Of a stretch of 64,000 bases of DNA, positions 3,946-34,177 are shown piece after piece (the stretch's first letter is position 1; every line of letters begins with the position of its first letter). Made by a program: the position numbers and the translations under genes. The notes below the pieces were generated by a model. That model was not told the origin of the DNA and did no database searches. It saw only the letters and a list, made by a program, of their open reading frames with translations. Location of the stretch: the NCBI RefSeq assembly GCF_002844195.1, contig NZ_PEND01000007.1, positions 1 to 64,000 on the forward strand, given 5' to 3'. This DNA comes from Halegenticoccus soli (GTDB lineage: Archaea > Halobacteriota > Halobacteria > Halobacteriales > Haloferacaceae).

Positions 3946-5634
3946 CTACCCCCGGTGCCGCTCCTTCGACGCGATCCGCACCTTCGTGTCGGCGGCCGAC
4001 GCGAACAGCTTCCGCCCCTCTCTCGTGAACGTGAGCCCGTCGATCGCGACCGTCTCGTCCGGGCCGGGGAGCGGCCCGCGGGTCGTCTCGTTGCCCCGGG
4101 TCACGGCGAGCGAAAAGCCGCTCCGCTCGGCGACGACCGAGACGTTCCGGCCCATCACGACCGGCTCGGCGGTCGACCGCGGCGAGGCGTACACCGGCTT
4201 CGACGCGCCGTCGACGCCGAGCGACACCCGGTACACCGGTTCGGTCCCGACCGGCTTCCACCCCTCCCTCGTGGCCACGACCGTCTCGCGCCACCCGACC
4301 CCGCCGAGGTGGATCCTGGCGGATCCCGCGAACGCGAGCCGCGACTTGGAGACGGCCGTCGTCCAGATCTCCCGCTCTTCGCTCCGCACGATGACGCCCG
4401 AGGTGTTCACGGACGTCCGCTCGCCGAACGCCTCGGCGTCGATCACCGCGATCATCCCGTCCGAGACGTTCTCGGCGTACGTCACCTCGTAATCCCGGAC
4501 GGTCACGGATTCGCCGGGCAGGTCGTCGTCGCCGACGGCGAAGAGGAGGTTCACCCCGACGGCGGGCCCCGCGACGGCGGCCGTACACACCAGGAGCAGC
4601 GCGACCGCCAGCTCCCGGCTCGTGAGTCCGGCGACGAACCCGCGGAGCGTCTCCGGGTCGGGCGCCGCACCGCCGACGCGCGCGAGCGGTCGCCGATCGG
4701 AGGCGGTCGCCGCCGCCGTCACGATTCCGGCGAGCAGCGTCACGAGCACGAGGCCCCAGGCGCGGTAGAGGACGAACACGCCGTTGCCGCGGAACCAGTA
4801 CACCGCCCACAGCGACTGCGCGACCGCGAAGAGGAGCACGCCCGTCCACAGCCGCAGCGCGGCGGGCGGTTCGTCGCCGCGGCGTCGGGCGAGCCGGAGC
4901 GCGATCGCCGCCCCCAGCAGGAGGCCGAGTAGGTGCCCCTGGATCGCGATGTCGGCGAACCACGGCGTCGAAAAGGTGGGTCGGCTGGCGGCCGTCGAGA
5001 CGGGGTCGGCGAGCGCCCAGTACGCCAACCGGACCGCCTGACCGGCGACGAGCGCGAGCACGGTCGCGAGCGGGAAGTACACGAGGGCGAAGCCGGCGAA
5101 CGCGAAGACGACGCCGGAGAAGCCGATAACGGGCCCGAGACCGAGCGCGGCGTTGAGCAGGCCGACCGCGACGACGCCGAGCGGGAACAGGACGAACGCC
5201 CGGACGTACGGGTTCGTCCGCCACGAACCGAACGACGACGCGCCCCGCTCCCGCGGGAAGTGGCCCCAGGCGTACTCCGCGAGCGGCGCGAGCGTCAGCG
5301 TCCCGACGAGGTTGCCGATCAGGTGACCCGGACCGGCGTGGGAGAACGCCGCGGCGAGCACGCCGAGCGGGTAGAAGTAGGACCACGCGGTGAAGGGAAG
5401 CGCGACCGGCGCGTTCCAGCGGCTCCACCCACCCTGGAGGAACAGGTACACGGCGAGGACGAACAGGGCGGAGACGACCGTTCCCCACGGGACGCCGGCG
5501 ACGAACCGGCCGCGGAGCGCGGCGAGCTTCCGCGACCACCGCCGGTCGAGCAGGCGAACGACCGCCAGCGAGGCGGCGAGCGCGAGGACGACCGCCGCGC
5601 GTTCGACGGGCACTCCGCCGGGAACCCAACCCAT
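3946..5634 (-). CDS. rhomboid-family intramembrane serine protease with C-terminal extra domain
   Basis: This 562-aa polytopic membrane protein has the rhomboid catalytic pattern: HAGPGHLIGN (His104 and Asn108), GFSG with the nucleophile Ser173, and IQGHLLG with the partner His234. Further membrane spans follow to about residue 375. The last ~190 residues are soluble and rich in beta strands, and probably face outside. Rhomboids cleave transmembrane substrates within the bilayer. The large extracellular C-terminal domain is not part of the core fold and may recruit substrates. It stands alone, tail-to-tail with the METTL5-like gene 70 nt away. Confidence 0.88.
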   Translation of the reverse strand: MGWVPGGVPVERAAVVLALAASLAVVRLLDRRWSRKLAALRGRFVAGVPWGTVVSALFVLAVYLFLQGGWSRWNAPVALPFTAWSYFYPLGVLAAAFSHAGPGHLIGNLVGTLTLAPLAEYAWGHFPRERGASSFGSWRTNPYVRAFVLFPLGVVAVGLLNAALGLGPVIGFSGVVFAFAGFALVYFPLATVLALVAGQAVRLAYWALADPVSTAASRPTFSTPWFADIAIQGHLLGLLLGAAIALRLARRRGDEPPAALRLWTGVLLFAVAQSLWAVYWFRGNGVFVLYRAWGLVLVTLLAGIVTAAATASDRRPLARVGGAAPDPETLRGFVAGLTSRELAVALLLVCTAAVAGPAVGVNLLFAVGDDDLPGESVTVRDYEVTYAENVSDGMIAVIDAEAFGERTSVNTSGVIVRSEEREIWTTAVSKSRLAFAGSARIHLGGVGWRETVVATREGWKPVGTEPVYRVSLGVDGASKPVYASPRSTAEPVVMGRNVSVVAERSGFSLAVTRGNETTRGPLPGPDETVAIDGLTFTREGRKLFASAADTKVRIASKERHRG

Positions 5635-24359: not shown

Positions 24360-25616
24360 CTACGGCCAGTTGCCGCCCTGCCGGTAGGCTTTGAGCACCC
24401 GCTCGATGGCGACGACGTACGCCGCCGTCCGGAAGTTCGGCACGTCCTTCGTCTCGTACGCGGCGACGAGATCGGCGAACGCGTCGACGATCACGCGCTC
24501 CAGTTCGTCGTTGACGCGCTCTTCCGACCAGTAGAAGCGCTGGCGGTTCTGCACCCACTCGAAGTACGAGACGGTCACCCCGCCCGCGTTCGCCAGGATG
24601 TCCGGGAAGACGGACACGTCCTTCGCCGTCAGCACGTCGTCGGCGTCCGGGGTGAGGGGGCCGTTCGCGGCCTCGACGATCACGTCGGCCCGCACGTCCT
24701 CGGCGAGGTCGCCGTCGATCGCGTTCTCCAGCGCGGCCGGGATGAGCAGTTCCACGTCGAGCGTCAGCAGCTCCTCGTTCGACAGCTCCTCCTCGGCGTT
24801 CGGGTAGCCGGTGACGCTCCCCGTCTCGTTCTTGTGCTGCTTCACCGCGCGCGCGTCGATGCCCTCGGAGTTGTACACCGCGCCGCTGGAGTCCGAGACC
24901 GCGACGACTTTGGCGCCGAGATCCTCGATCAGGGAGGCCGCGACCGATCCCGCGTTGCCGTACCCCTGGACCGCGACCGTCGCGCCGTCGATCTCCTCGC
25001 CGAGGTAGTCGAACGCCTCGCGGGCGGTGAGCATCGTCGAGCGCCCCGTCGCCTCGACGCGCCCCGCGCTCCCGCCGCTGTCGGGCGCCTTCCCGGTGAT
25101 GACGCCGGGCGCGGTCGTGTTCTCCAGGGTCTCGTAGGTGTCCTTGATCCAGTTCATCTCCTGCTGGCCGGTGTTCACGTCGGGTGCCGGGATGTCCTTG
25201 TCCACGCCGATGAAGGGCCGGAGCTCCTTCGCGAACGAGCGCGTGATTCGCTCGAGTTCGGCGTCGCTGTAATCGTCCGGATCGAGGGCGATGCCGCCCT
25301 TGCCGCCCCCGAACGGGATGTCGACGATGGCCGTCTTGTACGCCATCCACCCGGAGAGCGCCTTGACCTCGTCGCGCGAGACGTTCGGGTGATAGCGGAT
25401 GCCGCCCTTGTACGGCCCGCGGTCGCCGTTGAACTGCGATCTGTACGCCCGGAACACCTCGATGCGCCCGTCGTCCATCTCGACCGAGAGGTTCGCCTCG
25501 AGCACGCGTTCGGGGTGCTTGAGGCGTGCGAGGACGTCGGGCGTCACGTCGAGGTACGCCGCCGCGTCGTCGATCTGCTCCTGCAGACTTTCGAACGGGT
25601 TAGCCTCCTCCGCCAT
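24360..25616 (-). CDS. gdhA: glutamate dehydrogenase, paralogue 1
   Basis: This 418-aa hexameric-type enzyme interconverts glutamate and 2-oxoglutarate plus ammonia. [14 protein letters not shown] holds substrate-binding lysines, [18 protein letters not shown] the catalytic Lys region, and [14 protein letters not shown] the nucleotide-binding Rossmann turn. The C-terminal [22 protein letters not shown] matches archaeal GDH. A TTATT box lies 27 nt before the ATG at 25616. It lies 68 nt downstream of the CitE gene in the same direction, but with its own promoter. Confidence 0.95.
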
Positions 25617-25684: not shown

Positions 25685-26533
25685 TTATATTTCGTCCGCC
25701 GCGCGGGCCCGCTCGACGATCCGCTCGGCCTGCGCGATCAAGGGCGCGTCGATCATCTCCCCTTCGACCCTGAAGACGCCGCGACCCTCCGATTCGGCTT
25801 CGTCGCGCGCGTCGAGCACCTTCCGCGCCCACTCGACGCGTTCGGGGTCGGGTGTGAACGCGTCGTTGATCACGGGGACCTGGGCGGGGTGGATCGCCAT
25901 CTTGCCGTCGTACCCGAGCGTGACCGCGAACGCGGTTTCGTCCGCCAGGCCCTCCGCGTCCTCGAAGTCGGTGTAGACCGTGTCGACGGCCTCGACGCCG
26001 GCCGCGCTCGCGGCGAGGACGACGTGCTCCCGCGCGTACAGCACCTCGGTCCCCTCGCGCGTGCGCGTCGCGCCGACGTCCGCCGCCAGGTCCTCCGCGC
26101 CGAACACGAGCGCGTCCGTCGCCTCCGCGGCGGCGGTCTCGCGTGCCGCGAGCACCCCGGCGGCGCTCTCGATCAGCGCGAGGATCGCCGCCTCTCGCCC
26201 GCGCGAGGCGAGCGCGGCGTCCACGTCCTCCACGTCCGCAGGCGAAGCCACCTTCGGCACCATCACCGCGTCGAGGCGCGCGTCCTCCGCGAGCACGGCG
26301 TCGAGGTCGTCCGCCGCGGTCTGCCCGGGGTTGACCCGCACGCAGACCTCCGCGTCGGGGTCGAACTCGGGGTCGGCGAGCACGCTCCTGACCGCGTCGC
26401 GCGCCTCCGCCTTCCGCGCGGGGGCGACCGCGTCCTCCAGGTCGAACACGACGGTGTCGGCGCCGGTGCCGGGCGCTTTGCGCATCAGTTCCGGGCGGTC
26501 GCCCGGCGAGAACAGAACGCTTCTGCGAGCCAT
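25685..26533 (-). CDS. CitE-family (HpcH/HpaI) acyl-CoA lyase or thioesterase
   Basis: This 282-aa TIM-barrel protein is of the citrate lyase beta / malyl-CoA lyase type. It has RRSVLFSPGDRPELMRKA, DTVVFDLEDAVAPARK (metal-site region), VRVNPG, DAVMVPKVASPADVEDV, LIESAAGVLAARE and LGYDGKMAIHPAQVPVINDAF. In haloarchaea, CitE paralogues act as beta-methylmalyl-CoA lyase or (S)-malyl-CoA thioesterase in the methylaspartate cycle (established for Haloarcula-type species). It sits between two glutamate dehydrogenase genes, which fits that cycle, but the other diagnostic genes are not in the window. Confidence 0.88.
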   Translation of the reverse strand: MARRSVLFSPGDRPELMRKAPGTGADTVVFDLEDAVAPARKAEARDAVRSVLADPEFDPDAEVCVRVNPGQTAADDLDAVLAEDARLDAVMVPKVASPADVEDVDAALASRGREAAILALIESAAGVLAARETAAAEATDALVFGAEDLAADVGATRTREGTEVLYAREHVVLAASAAGVEAVDTVYTDFEDAEGLADETAFAVTLGYDGKMAIHPAQVPVINDAFTPDPERVEWARKVLDARDEAESEGRGVFRVEGEMIDAPLIAQAERIVERARAADEI

Positions 26534-26808: not shown

Positions 26809-28089
26809 CTACGGCCAGAGACCGCGCGCTTCGTGCGCCTCGGCGACCCGCGACAGCGCGACGACGTAGGCGGCGTCGCGCCACGTCACGCCCCGCTCTT
26901 CGACCACGTCGCGGACCGCGTTCCACGCCTTGAGCATCTCCGTTTCGAGTTCGTCGTTGACGCGTTCGAGCGACCACGCCCGCCGGTTGATGTCCTGGAG
27001 CCACTCGAAGTACGAGACGGTGACGCCGCCCGCGTTCGCCAGGATGTCCGGGATGACCCGGATCCCGCGCTCCTCGAAGATCGCGTCGGCGCCCGTCGTC
27101 GTCGGACCGTTCGCCCCCTCGACGATCATCCGCGCGCGCACGTCGTTCGCGTTCGCCGCGGTGAGGACGTTGCCGACCGCGGCGGGTACGAGCACGTCCA
27201 CGTCGAGGAGGAGTAGCTCCTCGTTCGACAGCGTCTCCGGCGCGTCGTAGCCGGAGACCATCCCGGGGCGCTCGTCGTGACCCTCGACGTCGCGGGTGTC
27301 GAGGCCGTCGGGATCGTACACCGCGCCGTCGACGTCGCTCACAGCGACGACGGTCGCACCGCGGTCGTCGAGGTAGCGCGCGGCGTTCGCGCCGACGCTG
27401 CCGAACCCCTGCACGGCGACCGTCGTCTCTTCGAGTTCCCAGCCGTAGTAGTCGATCGCCTCGCGGGCGACGATCCCGACGCTGCGGCCGGGGGCCTCCT
27501 CGCGGCCGCGGCTCCCGCCGATGACGGGCGGTTTGCCGGTCACGACGCCCGGGATCGTCTCGCCCTCCTGCATCGAGTAGGCGTCCATGAACCACGCCAT
27601 CGTCTGCGGGTCCGTCCCCATGTCCGGCGCAGGGATGTCGCGCATCGGTCCGATCACGTCGCGCAGCTCCTCTGCGAATCGCCGGGTGAGCCGCTCCTTC
27701 TCGCCGTCGCTGAGGGTCTTGGGGTCGACCACGACGCCGCCCTTGCCGCCGCCGAAGGGGATGTCCATCACGGCGCACTTCCAGGTCATCCACATCGCCA
27801 GCCCGACGCATTCCTCGGCACTCACGTCGGGGTGGTACCGCAGCCCGCCCTTGAACGGGCCCCGGACGCTGTCGTGCTGCGCGCGGAACCCCGTGTAGAC
27901 CTCCGTCTCGCCCGTGTCGCGCTGAAGCGGGATCGACACCTGGTGGACTTTGTCCGGGTGCTTCAGCCGCTCTATGATCCCGGGGTCGACGTCCAGGTGC
28001 GCCGCCGCGCGTTCGAGCTGCCGTCGCGCCGTCTCGACGGCCGTCTCCGACTCCTCCAGTTCCGGTGCCGTAGCTGTTGCGGATGACAT
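26809..28089 (-). CDS. glutamate dehydrogenase, paralogue 2
   Basis: This second GDH (426 aa) has the same landmarks as the first: [62 protein letters not shown] and [18 protein letters not shown]. They clearly diverge outside these motifs, so this is not a recent duplication; different cofactor preference or regulation is likely. The start at 28089 gives the usual N-terminus. The best TATA box (28227-28238) instead fits an ATG at 28203, whose 38-residue Arg-rich extension does not look coded. The message may therefore have a ~114-nt leader. Confidence 0.93.
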
Positions 28090-28226
28090 GACTGAGTACG
28101 TTCGCTCTGTCGGCGAAGGCGCGCGATCGCGTGCGCGTGAGTCGCACGCCGCCCGTCCAGAAACCGCCCGCCGATCGCTCCGTCTCTCTCGCGTCGGGGG
28201 CATTCACTCGGTGTCGTCCGCGCCAC

Positions 28227-28329: not shown

Positions 28330-28779
28330 ATGCCCGGACGCTACTACGAGGAGTTCGAGGTCGGCGAGACGATCGAGCACGGAAAGCGGCGCACGGTGAG
28401 CGAGAGCGACAACCAGCGGTTCTGCGACATGACGATGAATCAGCAGCCGCTGCACCTGGACGCCGAGTTCGCCGCCGACACGCAGTTCGGCCGGCGGCTG
28501 GTCAACGGCCTCTACACGATGAGCCTCGCGGTCGGACTCACCATTCCGGAGACGACCGACGGAACCATCGTCGCCAACCTCTCGTACGACAACGTCGAAC
28601 ACCCCGCGCCGGTGTTCCACGGCGACACCATCCGCGCGCAGTCGACGGTGACCGAAAAGCGCGAGACCAGCGACGGCGAGCGCGGCGTCGTCACCATGCG
28701 CGTCGAGGCGTACAACCAGGACGACACGCTGGTCTGCGAGTTCGACCGGACGGTGCTGTCGCTGAAGCGCCCCGGGTGA
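28330..28779 (+). CDS. MaoC-family hot-dog (R)-specific dehydratase
   Basis: This 149-aa single hot-dog domain begins MPGRYYEEFEVGETIEHGKR. The hydratase motif is seen as NQQPLHLDAEFAADTQFG (Asp and His in the D-x4-H type dyad region), then RRLVNGLYTMSLAVG. It probably hydrates an enoyl-CoA. It is divergent from gdh paralogue 2. Mesaconyl-CoA hydratase of the methylaspartate cycle belongs to the same superfamily but is larger in known cases, so I do not assign it. The start at 28330 has TTTTCG about 27 nt upstream. Confidence 0.88.
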   Translation: MPGRYYEEFEVGETIEHGKRRTVSESDNQRFCDMTMNQQPLHLDAEFAADTQFGRRLVNGLYTMSLAVGLTIPETTDGTIVANLSYDNVEHPAPVFHGDTIRAQSTVTEKRETSDGERGVVTMRVEAYNQDDTLVCEFDRTVLSLKRPG

Positions 28780-30546: not shown

Positions 30547-32295
30547 TCAGAGGACGGTGCCGTGCTTTTTGTCCGGCAGCGACTTCTCGACGGTCTCGTA
30601 GAAGTCGAACCGCCGCACCAGCTCCTCCCGGAGGTCGCTCGGCGGGACGATCTCGTCGATGACGACTTCGCTCGCCATGCGGTGGGCGTCGATGTCCACC
30701 CGGTACTCCTCGCGGAGTTCCCGTTCGCGGGCCGCCCGCTCCTCCGGGTCGTCGATGGCGGCGAGCTTGTTCGCGTACACCGCGTTGATGGCCGCCTCCG
30801 GACCCATGATGGCGATCTCCCCGCTCGGCAGGGCGATGACGCTCTCGGGGTCGTAGGCGGGCCCCCCCATCGCGTATATGCCCGCGCCGTAGGCCTTCCT
30901 GACGACGACGGTCTGCTTCGGGACCGTCGCCGACGAGGTGGCGTAGATGAACTTCTTGCCCTTCTCCAGGATCGCGTCCTTTTCCACCTGCGAGCCGGCC
31001 ATGAACCCCGGCGTGTCGCAGAGGTACAGGAGGGGGATCTCGTAGGCGTCGCAGGTCCAGATGAACTCGGCGGCCTTCTCGGCCGCGTCGGGGAAGATGG
31101 CCCCCGAGCGCTCGATCGGCTGGTTGGCGACGACGCCGACGGGTCGCCCGCCGATCCGGACGAACGCGGTGACGATCTCCGTTCCGTAGTCGGGCTTGAG
31201 TTCGAACGTCGACTCCGCGTCCGCGATCCGATCGATCAGGTCGAACACGTCGTACGGGCGGTTCGGCGACTCGGGGATGAGCTCGTCGATGCCGTCCGGC
31301 GAGTACTTCGGGGGCTTCGGCTCGCTCCGCGGCGGCTTCTCGCCCGCCTTGTCCGGCAGGTACGAGAGCAGCCCCGCCACGAGCTCCCGGGCGTGCTCCT
31401 CGTCGCGCGCGACGAGGTCGGCGCTGCCGGAGTACTTCGCGTGGATCTCCGGACCGCCGAGGTCCTGCATATCGATGTCCTCGCCGGTCACCATCTTCAC
31501 CATCCGCGGGCTCGCGATGGCCATGGAGCTCATCCCCTCGACCATGATCGTGAAGTCGGCGAAGACGGGGGTGTACGCCGCCCCGGCGATGCAAGGGCCG
31601 TAGAGCACGCAGATCTGGGGGACGCGGCCGGAGAGCATCGAGTGGTTGTAGTAGTACTTTCCGATCCCCTCGCGATTGGCGAAAAAGCCCGTTTGCTGGT
31701 CGATGCGGCCGCCGGACGAGTCCATGAGGTACAGCACCGGCTTGCCCGACTTGAGCGCGCGTTGCTGCATCCGGAGGAACTTCTCGACGCCCAGCCGGGC
31801 CATGCTGCCGGCTTTGACGGTGAAGTCGTTCGCCATGAAGTGGAGGTCGCGACCCTCGAACTCGGCGGCCCCCGTGATCATCCCGTCCGCCGGGAGGCGG
31901 TCGTTCGGATCGTACTCCTCCACCTCGGGGCTGTCGGGGTGCCACGCGTCGAAGTGCGCGAACTTCCCGTCCTCGAATGTGACGCCGTCGGCGCCGAACC
32001 AGAGATCGAGCCGGTCTCGGACGAACAGCTTCCCCTGGTCGGAGAGGCGCTCCCGGTACTTCTCGGGGCCTCCCTGCAGGATGTCCTCGATCTCCGCCCG
32101 CAGGGCCGCCTCGCGTTCGGTCGGCCCGAGGTCGTCGTCCAGCGGGTACTCGGTTTCGGGCGGTTCGGCCGTCGCCGAGGGCGCGTCGTCGCCCCCGACG
32201 TGTACCTCGATGTCGACGCCGAGATGCTTCGCGAGCGCGGTGGCGATGGCGCTCGCCTCGTCTTCGCTCGCGCCCTCGCCGATGCGGACCTTCAT
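30547..32295 (-). CDS. acyl-CoA carboxylase carboxyltransferase subunit with PccX-like N-terminus
   Basis: This 582-aa biotin-dependent carboxyltransferase (propionyl-/acetyl-CoA carboxylase beta type) shows DSSGGRIDQQTGFFANREG, YGPCIAGAAYTPVFADFTIMV, the N/C-half Gly-Ala oxyanion segments, PLLYLCDTPGFMAGSQVEK and VVVRKAYGAGIYAMGG. It is about 60-70 residues longer than common PccB. The first 35 residues (MKVRIGEGASEDEASAIATA and on to LAKHLG) match the short PccX/epsilon-like small subunit that haloarchaeal propionyl-CoA carboxylase needs, here apparently fused. No biotin carboxylase lies nearby. The start at 32295 is chosen because the ATG at 32334 adds no conserved sequence. Confidence 0.88.
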   Translation of the reverse strand: MKVRIGEGASEDEASAIATALAKHLGVDIEVHVGGDDAPSATAEPPETEYPLDDDLGPTEREAALRAEIEDILQGGPEKYRERLSDQGKLFVRDRLDLWFGADGVTFEDGKFAHFDAWHPDSPEVEEYDPNDRLPADGMITGAAEFEGRDLHFMANDFTVKAGSMARLGVEKFLRMQQRALKSGKPVLYLMDSSGGRIDQQTGFFANREGIGKYYYNHSMLSGRVPQICVLYGPCIAGAAYTPVFADFTIMVEGMSSMAIASPRMVKMVTGEDIDMQDLGGPEIHAKYSGSADLVARDEEHARELVAGLLSYLPDKAGEKPPRSEPKPPKYSPDGIDELIPESPNRPYDVFDLIDRIADAESTFELKPDYGTEIVTAFVRIGGRPVGVVANQPIERSGAIFPDAAEKAAEFIWTCDAYEIPLLYLCDTPGFMAGSQVEKDAILEKGKKFIYATSSATVPKQTVVVRKAYGAGIYAMGGPAYDPESVIALPSGEIAIMGPEAAINAVYANKLAAIDDPEERAARERELREEYRVDIDAHRMASEVVIDEIVPPSDLREELVRRFDFYETVEKSLPDKKHGTVL

Positions 32296-32454
32296 GGTGC
32301 GACCTCCGTCCGACGGTTGCAAATGGTTTTCCATGTGAATCCGCCCCGACGCGGGCCGTCGCCGCGCCGCTCCGCCGGCGACTCCGCGTTCGAAAACGAG
32401 CCTCCCGACAGGAGAGTGCCTTCGGCCGGAAGGGCCGGCGACCGGAGCGAACGC

Positions 32455-33342
32455 TCAGGCCAGCGCCGATTCGAGTCGCTCCACGAGCGCCGCGTTCCCG
32501 ACGTACAGCGGCACGCGCTGGTGGAGGGCGTCGGGCTCGACGGCGAGCAGCGAGCGCTCGCCGTCCGACGAGCGGCCCCCGGCCGACTCGATGATGTAGC
32601 CGATCGGAATCCCCTCGAACTGGAGGCGGAGTTTGCCCTCGGGGGCCGACCGGAGCGTCGGGTAGGCGAACACCCCGCCGTAGGTGAGCACCTGGTTGAT
32701 GTCGCCGATCATCGCCCCGCCGTAGCGGAGCTTCATGCTCTCGTCGCTTTCGACCTCGCGGGCGTATTCGGTGAACTCGGGCGTCCAGTCGGGGACGCGC
32801 CCGCCGAAGCCGTAGACCAGCGGATCGTCCGGGAGGGCGACGTCCTCGCGGACGGCTTCGAGTTCCCCGTCGTCGACGACGTACTCGGTGACGGACCGGT
32901 CGCGGGCGACGGCCATCGTGGTGATCGGCCCGTAGAGGACGTACGCCGCCGCGACGAGATCCCCCCCGGCCGCGGGGAGCGGCTGGTCGTAGACGGCGAC
33001 GATGGTCCCCATCGTGTTGTTCGGCTTGAGGTTCGACGAGCCGTCGAGGGGGTCGATGCCGACGGAGAGGCCCTCGCCCTCGCCGACGGCGATCACCTCC
33101 TCGCGCTCCTCGCTCGCGTACTCGACGACGCCGTCGATCGCGCCCAGCCGCTCCAGGAGGAGTTCGTCGGCGTAGGCGTCCGCCTCCAACTGCTCTTCGC
33201 CGCTCGGGTTCGTCTCGTCGCGCTTCACCCGCCGGCCGGGGAGGCAGCTTCGGATCTCGGGCGCGAGCGCCGCGACGGTCGTGATGACCTCGTCTATCGG
33301 ATCGAACTCCGGCGACCCGGGGGGAGCGACGGTCGTACCCAT
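32455..33342 (-). CDS. fbp: class I fructose-1,6-bisphosphatase
   Basis: This 295-aa gluconeogenic phosphatase has a metal site spread over YASEEREE and the hallmark [24 protein letters not shown], with [24 protein letters not shown] later. It follows the fba gene by 4 nt on the same strand, so aldolase and phosphatase are co-expressed. That coupling is typical of haloarchaeal gluconeogenesis. Confidence 0.94.
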
Positions 33343-33346
33343 CGGG

Positions 33347-34177
33347 TCAGTCGAGCGCCGCGCCCGCGCGTTCTTCGCCGGCGGACGACATCTCGCCCAG
33401 CGCGTCGTCGGCCGTCGCGCCCTCGAAGATCACCGCCTCCAGCGCGTCGAGGAGTTCCGTCGCGTTCTCGCGCTGGAAGACGTTCCGCCCGACGGCGAGG
33501 CCGGATCCCCCCGCGTTCATCGCCGACTCGACGGTTTCGAGGAACTGCCGGTCGTCCGTCTTCGACCCGCCGCTCATGACCACTTTCGTCCCCGCGGCGG
33601 ACTGACAGACCCACTCCATCGCCTCGGGCGTGCCGGGGTACTTGACCTTCGTGATGTCCGCGCCGAGTTCGAGCCCCATGCGGGCGGCGTAGGCGATCGT
33701 GTCGGGGCTCCGATCGTTCTTCAGCCCCTGCCCGCGCGGGTAGGACCACATGACGACACCCATGTCGTGCTCGCGGGCAGCCTCGTGGGCGTCTCGGAAC
33801 TCCTCTGTCATCTCCACCTCCTTGTTCGAACCCCCGTACACGGTGAAGCCGATCGCGTCGGCGCCGAGGTCGGCGGCGTAGTCGACCGACCAGTTGACCG
33901 AGCTGTCCGGTTCACCCATCCACAGGTTCGACGTCCCGTTGAGCTTCGCCAGGAGCGTCACGTCGTCCTCGTAGGAGGGGTAGTACGCCTCCGCGACGCC
34001 CTTCTGCACCGCGAGCGCCGTCACGGCGTCGTGGGTGGCGAGTTCGAACACCGTCTCGGGGTCCGTCGTCTCCGGGACTGGCTCGAAGTCGACCGGCCCG
34101 TGCTCCAGCCCGTGGTCGTACGCGAGGATCAGCGCCTTCTCGTCCCGGGTGATCGCTTCGTCGGCGTGTGGAAGCAT
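33347..34177 (-). CDS. fba: archaeal class I fructose-bisphosphate aldolase (DhnA type)
   Basis: This 276-aa Schiff-base aldolase begins [20 protein letters not shown], followed by [27 protein letters not shown] carries the likely Schiff-base Lys, and [16 protein letters not shown] and [18 protein letters not shown] bind phosphate. It is the first gene of the fba-fbp operon. The TATA box at 34201-34210 is the strongest in this neighbourhood and implies a leaderless message. Confidence 0.95.

Follow-up and report, generated by a model that had tools for sequence, protein, structure and literature searches.

The carboxyltransferase (CT) described here is, in the reading that we somewhat favor, a subunit similar to those of methylcrotonyl-CoA carboxylases (MCC) that carries a built-in docking element resembling PccX and the epsilon subunit, uses PccA as its partner, and is linked to a MaoC-type hydratase and a CitE-type lyase. 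Its gene lies in a 64-kb stretch of DNA (the window) at the start of contig C7, from a 4.6-Mb haloarchaeal genome.

The carboxyltransferase gene and its subfamily

The CT frame (30547..32295, minus strand) is open and in frame, and codes for 582 aa. The full Pfam Carboxyl_trans domain (PF01039) is present at residues 86-580 (30556..32040, minus strand) with a score of 430 bits, above the curated cut-off of 22.3. The ORF and the Pfam match identify the protein as the CT (beta-type) subunit of a biotin-dependent acyl-CoA carboxylase, in the group called clade A below. The best-matching solved CT subunits can be aligned to it only from about residue 60-75, so that its first ~58 residues constitute the extra length pointed out in the preliminary description of this DNA. 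That description was also right that no biotin carboxylase (BC) is nearby: none is present in the 64-kb window, and all PF02786 matches of the genome are located elsewhere. An ORF of 1005 aa (30562-33579, plus strand) lies opposite the genes for the CT and FBPase and is most likely a shadow frame of the high-GC coding sequence.

An alternative in-frame ATG at 32334 would make the CT 13 aa longer. It is probably not the start, given that the conservation of the CT begins at MKVRIG and that a GGAAAAC-like element is conserved there as DNA. This promoter-like element (32320..32332, minus strand) was recognized by eye 25-37 nt 5′ of the start codon. By the same visual count, 17 of 20 genera have it ahead of the CT gene, and three loci (L092, L102 and L107) lack it. 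In two others (L103 and L104) it is displaced by 1-2 bases and is therefore conserved as DNA, in a promoter-like manner, and not as protein. The element has a partly palindromic, GGAAAAC-N-GTTT-like form, and could be a promoter or an operator.

Clade A orthologs, defined as the high-identity group (at least 71% identity), were found in 100 of the 117 genomes of the order, all tallies across these genomes being read from match tables. A paralogous CT with 51-54% identity, clade B, is present in 11 genomes, and 10 of these 11 CTs were used in the analyses. For the CT tree 73 rows were chosen, including 17 from clade A, 10 from clade B, 7 PccB proteins, 12 other CTs and 26 bacterial sister CTs. 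Clades A and B are each supported at 100/100, and together they group at 100/99 with the CT of Alkalihalobacterium (L128), which has a long branch and a weak placement (94/60). Clades A and B form one group with the 26 bacterial CTs, and the PccB proteins and the 12 other CTs lie beyond a 100/100 branch. The same branch separates the CT from the PccB of its own genome and from six other haloarchaeal PccB proteins. The L128 CT is without the N-terminal element described below and adjoins genes for AtuA, acyl-CoA dehydrogenases, CoA ligases and MaoC.

Tyr474 of the CT (30874..30876, minus strand) aligns with the specificity Asp of PccB, which is numbered 422 (D422) in the titles of PDB entries for mutants of S. 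coelicolor PccB. Tyrosine occupies this site in all clade A, clade B and near-bacterial rows; the seven haloarchaeal PccB rows are divided between Asp (four), Cys (two) and Ile (one). The PccB of this genome has Asp there, unlike the CT: its loop reads RKAYGGAYDVM versus RKAYGAGIYAM in the CT, and the form RKAYGAG[IL]YAM is shared by all clade A, clade B and sister rows. The preliminary description had regarded the body of the protein as PccB-type. Judging by the tree and the alignment it is not: it falls into a CT clade apart from PccB and does not have the residue associated with PccB specificity. The highest-scoring solved relatives of the CT are PCC-type beta subunits, ahead of the MCC beta chains of known structure.

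Outside haloarchaea, the CTs most similar to this one come from Bacillales, from Desulfallas/Desulfotruncus-type Firmicutes and from Actinobacteria, at 43-52% identity. According to the tree and the gene context, the sister CTs are found in clusters of acyl-CoA dehydrogenase, BC, BCCP and enoyl-CoA hydratase genes. Genes for acyl-CoA dehydrogenase, BC/BCCP, enoyl-CoA hydratase and HMG-CoA lyase constitute the gene set of methylcrotonyl-CoA carboxylase pathways. The L138 sister CT adjoins ORFs for acyl-CoA dehydrogenase, BC, BCCP (the latter two being separate genes) and enoyl-CoA hydratase, and the L148 sister CT adjoins an enoyl-CoA hydratase and two HMG-CoA-lyase-like ORFs, as named by reading their sequences. 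These MCC-like-cluster CTs from Bacillales and Desulfallas/Desulfotruncus-type bacteria share the RKAYGAG[IL]YAM loop with the CT and are its nearest relatives outside haloarchaea (about 43-52% identity), but they have no N-terminal element, and their clusters contain enoyl-CoA hydratase/HMG-CoA-lyase-type genes where haloarchaea have MaoC and CitE.

The N-terminal element and its likeness to PccX

In an AlphaFold2 model, residues 1-40 (32176..32295, minus strand) form a compact N-terminal element of a strand (residues 2-5), a helix (11-25) and a second strand (29-33), with pLDDT of about 90. The alignment and the model delimit a variable linker at residues 41-58 (32122..32175, minus strand), in which residues 49-53 have pLDDT under 50. 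By sequence, no solved structure was found for the N-terminus, all matches being weak (E 0.1 or more).

Of the 100 clade A genomes, 94 have a match that extends to residue 1-4, and six (G002, G033, G067, G068, G071 and G096) have one that starts later; the N-terminus was recovered by profile in G033, G068 and G071, and the match in G096 starts at a contig end. In G008 and G086 the clade A CT is split into two pieces. Clade B proteins are also aligned from residue 1-4. Alignments of canonical PccB to the CT start only at about residue 40-71, and those of the closest non-haloarchaeal CTs at residue 39-78, apart from one at a contig edge that starts at 134. The element is absent from all 18 non-haloarchaeal frames inspected. 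It is therefore the standard architecture of a haloarchaeal enzyme family and no fusion peculiar to this genome, since 94 of 100 orthologs align from residue 1-4.

The preliminary description had proposed that the N-terminus, of which it quoted residues 5-24, resembles PccX or the epsilon subunit. Profile comparisons place a PccX-similar stretch, comprising the first strand and the helix, at residues 3-28 (32212..32289, minus strand). When clade A N-termini (41 rows) were compared with PccX (30 rows) by hhalign, residues 3-28 matched with 93% probability and a score of 39.9. The clade B N-termini (10 rows) matched PccX with 82% and a score of 32.0, and alignments A2 and A3 matched each other with 95.6%. 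The best scores from 200 column shuffles were 20.3 for clade A and 19.2 for clade B. Among 159 windows of neighboring ORF families, the best scores outside the CT's own family were 18.0 (clade A), 17.6 (clade B) and 16.6 (PccX); these decoys came from 17 ORF families, of which several resemble frames opposite real genes and one is the CT itself.

The match is also reciprocal. An HMM of the CT N-terminus was searched against 246 genomes of the phylum. Of the 36 haloarchaeal genomes with a known PccX, 32 gave a match at its coordinates (E 2e-6 to 0.1), and the other four, G011, G023, G043 and G047, gave none among the matches listed to E 0.12. Two further matches, in G304 and G313, were read as PccX. 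Against 5170 ORFs of 80 named loci, the top five non-CT matches of the N-terminal profile are four PccX ORFs and an ORF at L151; for the PccX ORFs at L188 and L194, the first matching segment listed is something other than the helix. Conversely, the PccX profile retrieves six PccX proteins first from the same ORFs and then nine CT N-termini. At the level of sequence, the resemblance is thus above chance and specific over ~26-28 residues, so the PccX-type N-terminal strand-helix segment is present in the CT. Common descent of this segment and the PccX helix is likely.

The remainder of PccX has no such counterpart. Its conserved C-terminal half (W.G.RW.FAGR...RVP..APTDAW.AAGR) is absent in all 41 aligned clade A rows. 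Of this half, clade B retains only the W-[DEN] that also follows the helix in PccX, and does so in 9 of 10 rows. The AlphaFold2 model of PccX (mean pLDDT 67) has a single helix, after which comes coil of low confidence, and no credible solved structure was found for PccX. In the models the CT continues after the helix with a strand and PccX with a longer helix. The Pfam model ACC_epsilon (PF13822) matches none of 38 CT N-termini at E up to 10, and only one of 29 PccX proteins (E 5.9). In Actinobacteria, epsilon (AccE/PccE, PF13822) has an ATPEE-type helix similar to the CT N-terminus, but it is a separate chain. The proposed PccX/epsilon likeness holds for the strand-helix segment and fails for the C-terminal half and for the Pfam family.

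At L151 (Jatrophihabitans), the gene for an unfused relative of the CT, from the bacterial sister group, is followed by a small ORF of 52 aa. The ATG of this ORF, at 5527, shares bases with the stop codon of the CT gene. This actinobacterial epsilon-like ORF scores above the ACC_epsilon cut-off (26.3 vs 25 bits) and is the fifth best non-CT match of the CT N-terminal profile (E 0.014). Possibly it represents, in this one case, an unfused form of the N-terminal element. Small downstream ORFs were scanned in 15 loci, of which L151, L157, L162 and L169 have sister-group CTs; among these four, an ORF of this kind adjoining the CT was seen only at L151.

Free PccX, the alpha subunit and the gene neighborhood

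The genome has one other PF01039 CT, a 516-aa PccB (C1:853084-854607). The 3′ end of its gene is overlapped by a free ORF of 96 aa, which is followed by a 603-aa BC-BCCP frame (PccA). From its position between pccB and pccA we take the 96-aa ORF to be PccX, the small subunit presumably required by the haloarchaeal propionyl-CoA carboxylase. The same genome thus has a free pccX beside a different pccB, a finding that the preliminary description had named as one that would speak against a fusion. In this canonical PccA-PccB-PccX system, PccX is a separate gene and its helix resembles the CT N-terminus, PccB begins at about CT residue 60 and belongs to another clade, and PccA is the likely shared alpha subunit. 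PccX homologs were found in 101 of the 117 genomes of the order (E up to 0.01); four of the 101 matches have weak E values (0.0016-0.0064), and the G009 match corresponds to the N-terminus of a CT and not to a free gene. No paper joining PccX, propionyl-CoA carboxylase and Haloferax was found; among the matches listed in searches on pccX or Haloferax mediterranei there was none with pccX, and none of the titles listed in a further search dealt with an architecture like that of the CT.

Directly upstream of the CT, on the same strand and without PccX in between, 15 of the 100 genomes with clade A have a PccA gene. Thirteen of them show a gap of 2-54 bp; the other two, G067 and G071, have gaps of 202 and 270 bp and a CT match that starts only at residue 46-50. 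The same arrangement is present in two of nine named loci, Halopiger and Halovenus. PccA occurs in all 85 near-complete clade A genomes (near-complete meaning at least 90% complete and at most 5% contaminated; 97 genomes). Four genomes have clade A and PccA without canonical PccB or free PccX: G006, G009, G025 and G037, which are 99%, 92%, 89% and 88% complete, respectively. In the opposite direction, seven near-complete genomes (G011, G036, G051, G060, G076, G101 and G115) have PccA, PccB and PccX without clade A. Either CT can therefore occur without the other, and clade A is able to persist where PccX is missing.

Contig C5 carries genes for BCCP, CT_A_B and CT_C_D together with a divergent BC gene (L076 4394-8285). 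This second free-standing BC/BCCP was considered as a CT partner and rejected, as it sits with CT_A_B and CT_C_D subunits in a 5-oxoprolinase/urea-carboxylase-like set. Since the other BC/BCCP belong to that cluster, PccA is the only fitting BC-BCCP protein here. A role of the CT as the alpha subunit of a Na+-pumping decarboxylase (MmdA-like) was likewise rejected, because no OAD beta (PF03977) is encoded in the genome; the control search was positive in 2 of 14 genomes.

Two further enzymes are encoded near the CT. The MaoC-type hydratase (28333..28779, plus strand) best matches the NCBIfam model RipB/Ich with 119 bits, below its cut-off of 340. The CitE/RipC-type C-C lyase (25685..26533, minus strand) scores 220 bits with citE (cut-off 443) and 205 bits with RipC/Ccl (cut-off 375). 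By sequence score, the two proteins are relatives, and not members, of these families. A methylaspartate-cycle role was also considered for them and discarded, because their scores with the haloarchaeal equivalog models (51.7 and 71.3 bits, respectively) stay far below the cut-offs (560 and 500) and are exceeded by those of other models. Two glutamate dehydrogenase genes flank the CitE gene (24360-25616 and 26809-28203), each of them found near the CT in 9 of 20 neighborhoods chosen for genus spread. Of the same 20 neighborhoods, MaoC and FBPase are each present in 14, FBP aldolase in 13, 3-hydroxyacyl-CoA dehydrogenase in 12 and CitE in 10. In G020, CoA ligase, acyl-CoA dehydrogenase, PccA, CT and MaoC lie on one strand, and CitE 0.8 kb further on the other.

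MaoC orthologs are present in all 85 near-complete genomes with clade A and in 2 of the 12 without it (G051 and G076). CitE orthologs are present in 83 of the 85 (not in G010 and G024) and intact in none of the 12; CitE is broken in G051, and G115 has only a 50% paralog. The Fisher values for these co-occurrences, 5e-12 for MaoC and 1e-13 for CitE, overstate the association, as the genomes are not independent. In G051, which has no CT, CitE apparently lies in two broken frames (G051:C1:1795023-1795851), as if the pathway were being lost. Close relatives (35-39%) of the Desulfotruncus HMG-CoA-lyase-like protein were found in 6 of the 117 genomes, and the best match in the genome studied here, within a 532-aa frame, is 29%. 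These data fit a leucine-type route of carboxylase, hydratase and lyase that would act on a putative substrate and in which CitE would stand in for HMG-CoA lyase. It is possible, if rather doubtful, that the route is an order-wide one for leucine or isovalerate, in which PccA and the CT would make up a two-subunit 3-methylcrotonyl-CoA carboxylase, the RipB-like MaoC would lead to HMG-CoA, and the RipC/CitE-like lyase would take the place of HMG-CoA lyase.

Competing explanations and the proposed role

The likeness of the N-terminal element to PccX may be convergence of a short, acidic and alanine-rich helix, the element then being an unrelated strand-helix-strand add-on that serves, for example, oligomer contacts or salt stability. 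We regard this as a tentative alternative of rather low probability. The match is short, and the same profile also hits an unrelated protein of another archaeal family (E 4e-5), named as ArgJ by reading its sequence. Moreover, the FakA-like_C model matches 11 of 38 CT N-termini weakly (best E 0.0044), SPOR models match them weakly too, and the second strand is without a counterpart in the PccX model. However, the leading non-CT match in haloarchaea is PccX, a partner of an enzyme of the same class, reciprocally and in genome after genome; shuffles and windows of other families score half as much; and the W-[DEN] after the clade B helix is that of PccX. A different possibility, and an unlikely one, is that the CT is a second PccB (propionyl-CoA) isoenzyme with a functionless relic at its N-terminus. 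The shared fold and the top scores to PCC beta subunits speak for it, but the protein belongs to a fully supported separate clade, has the RKAYGAGIYAM loop and co-occurs with MaoC and CitE. Moreover, a relic would hardly be retained in 94 of 100 orthologs, and the seven near-complete genomes with PccA, PccB and PccX do without a clade A CT.

The preliminary description had gone further and proposed a true PccX fusion that would set the ratio to a PccB-type CT at 1:1, a reading under which the fusion would be confined to this lineage. Beyond the PccX-like helix at the N-terminus little agrees with it: the C-terminal half of PccX is missing, the architecture is order-wide, the CT is not PccB-type, and a free PccX stands beside another PccB. 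It is now very improbable. The preliminary description had also counted against its idea an alignment of the segment with the usual N-terminus of other PccB proteins and not with PccX. The outcome is half of this, in that the segment aligns with the N-terminus normal for its own CT subfamily and with PccX as well.

In the reading that we prefer, the CT would be the beta subunit of a second haloarchaeal acyl-CoA carboxylase, kin to MCC-like enzymes and not to PccB. PccX, like actinobacterial epsilon, would connect the alpha and beta subunits, and the PccX helix would assist in recruiting BC-BCCP. In the clade A subfamily this helix would be tethered to the CT via a flexible linker, which would make the beta-binding half of PccX superfluous and reduce the enzyme to alpha plus beta. 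PccA would have to be shared by the CT and PccB/PccX in this genome, because it is the only fitting alpha subunit. The carboxylated product would then pass to the MaoC hydratase and the CitE-type lyase, both encoded nearby. What the genomes show directly is the likeness to PccX, the spread of the element through the family, the PccA genes next to the CT in relatives and the co-occurrences; the docking, the roles of the PccX halves, the sharing of PccA and the substrate are inferred.

Known systems offer partial parallels. In Actinobacteria, one alpha subunit serves alternative beta/epsilon pairs, according to PMC13118682. PMC4347857 describes mycobacterial AccE as binding AccA3 reciprocally and as found with AccD4/AccD5, and the mycobacterial MCC AccD1-AccA1 as needing no epsilon. 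The latter counts against the need for an epsilon-like element in the CT. By analogy with the nearest bacterial CTs and mycobacterial MCC, which do without it, the N-terminal element may be dispensable or have another role.

Overall, the preferred reading suggests that a biotin-dependent carboxylase can drop its small assembly subunit by tethering the alpha-recruiting helix to the CT. If so, both designs would exist in one haloarchaeal cell, with a free PccX serving PccB and a built-in element serving the CT, and they would probably compete for one PccA. The role of PccX/epsilon would thereby become open to truncation and swap experiments. Finally, the linked MaoC and CitE genes provide a plausible pathway for this orphan CT.
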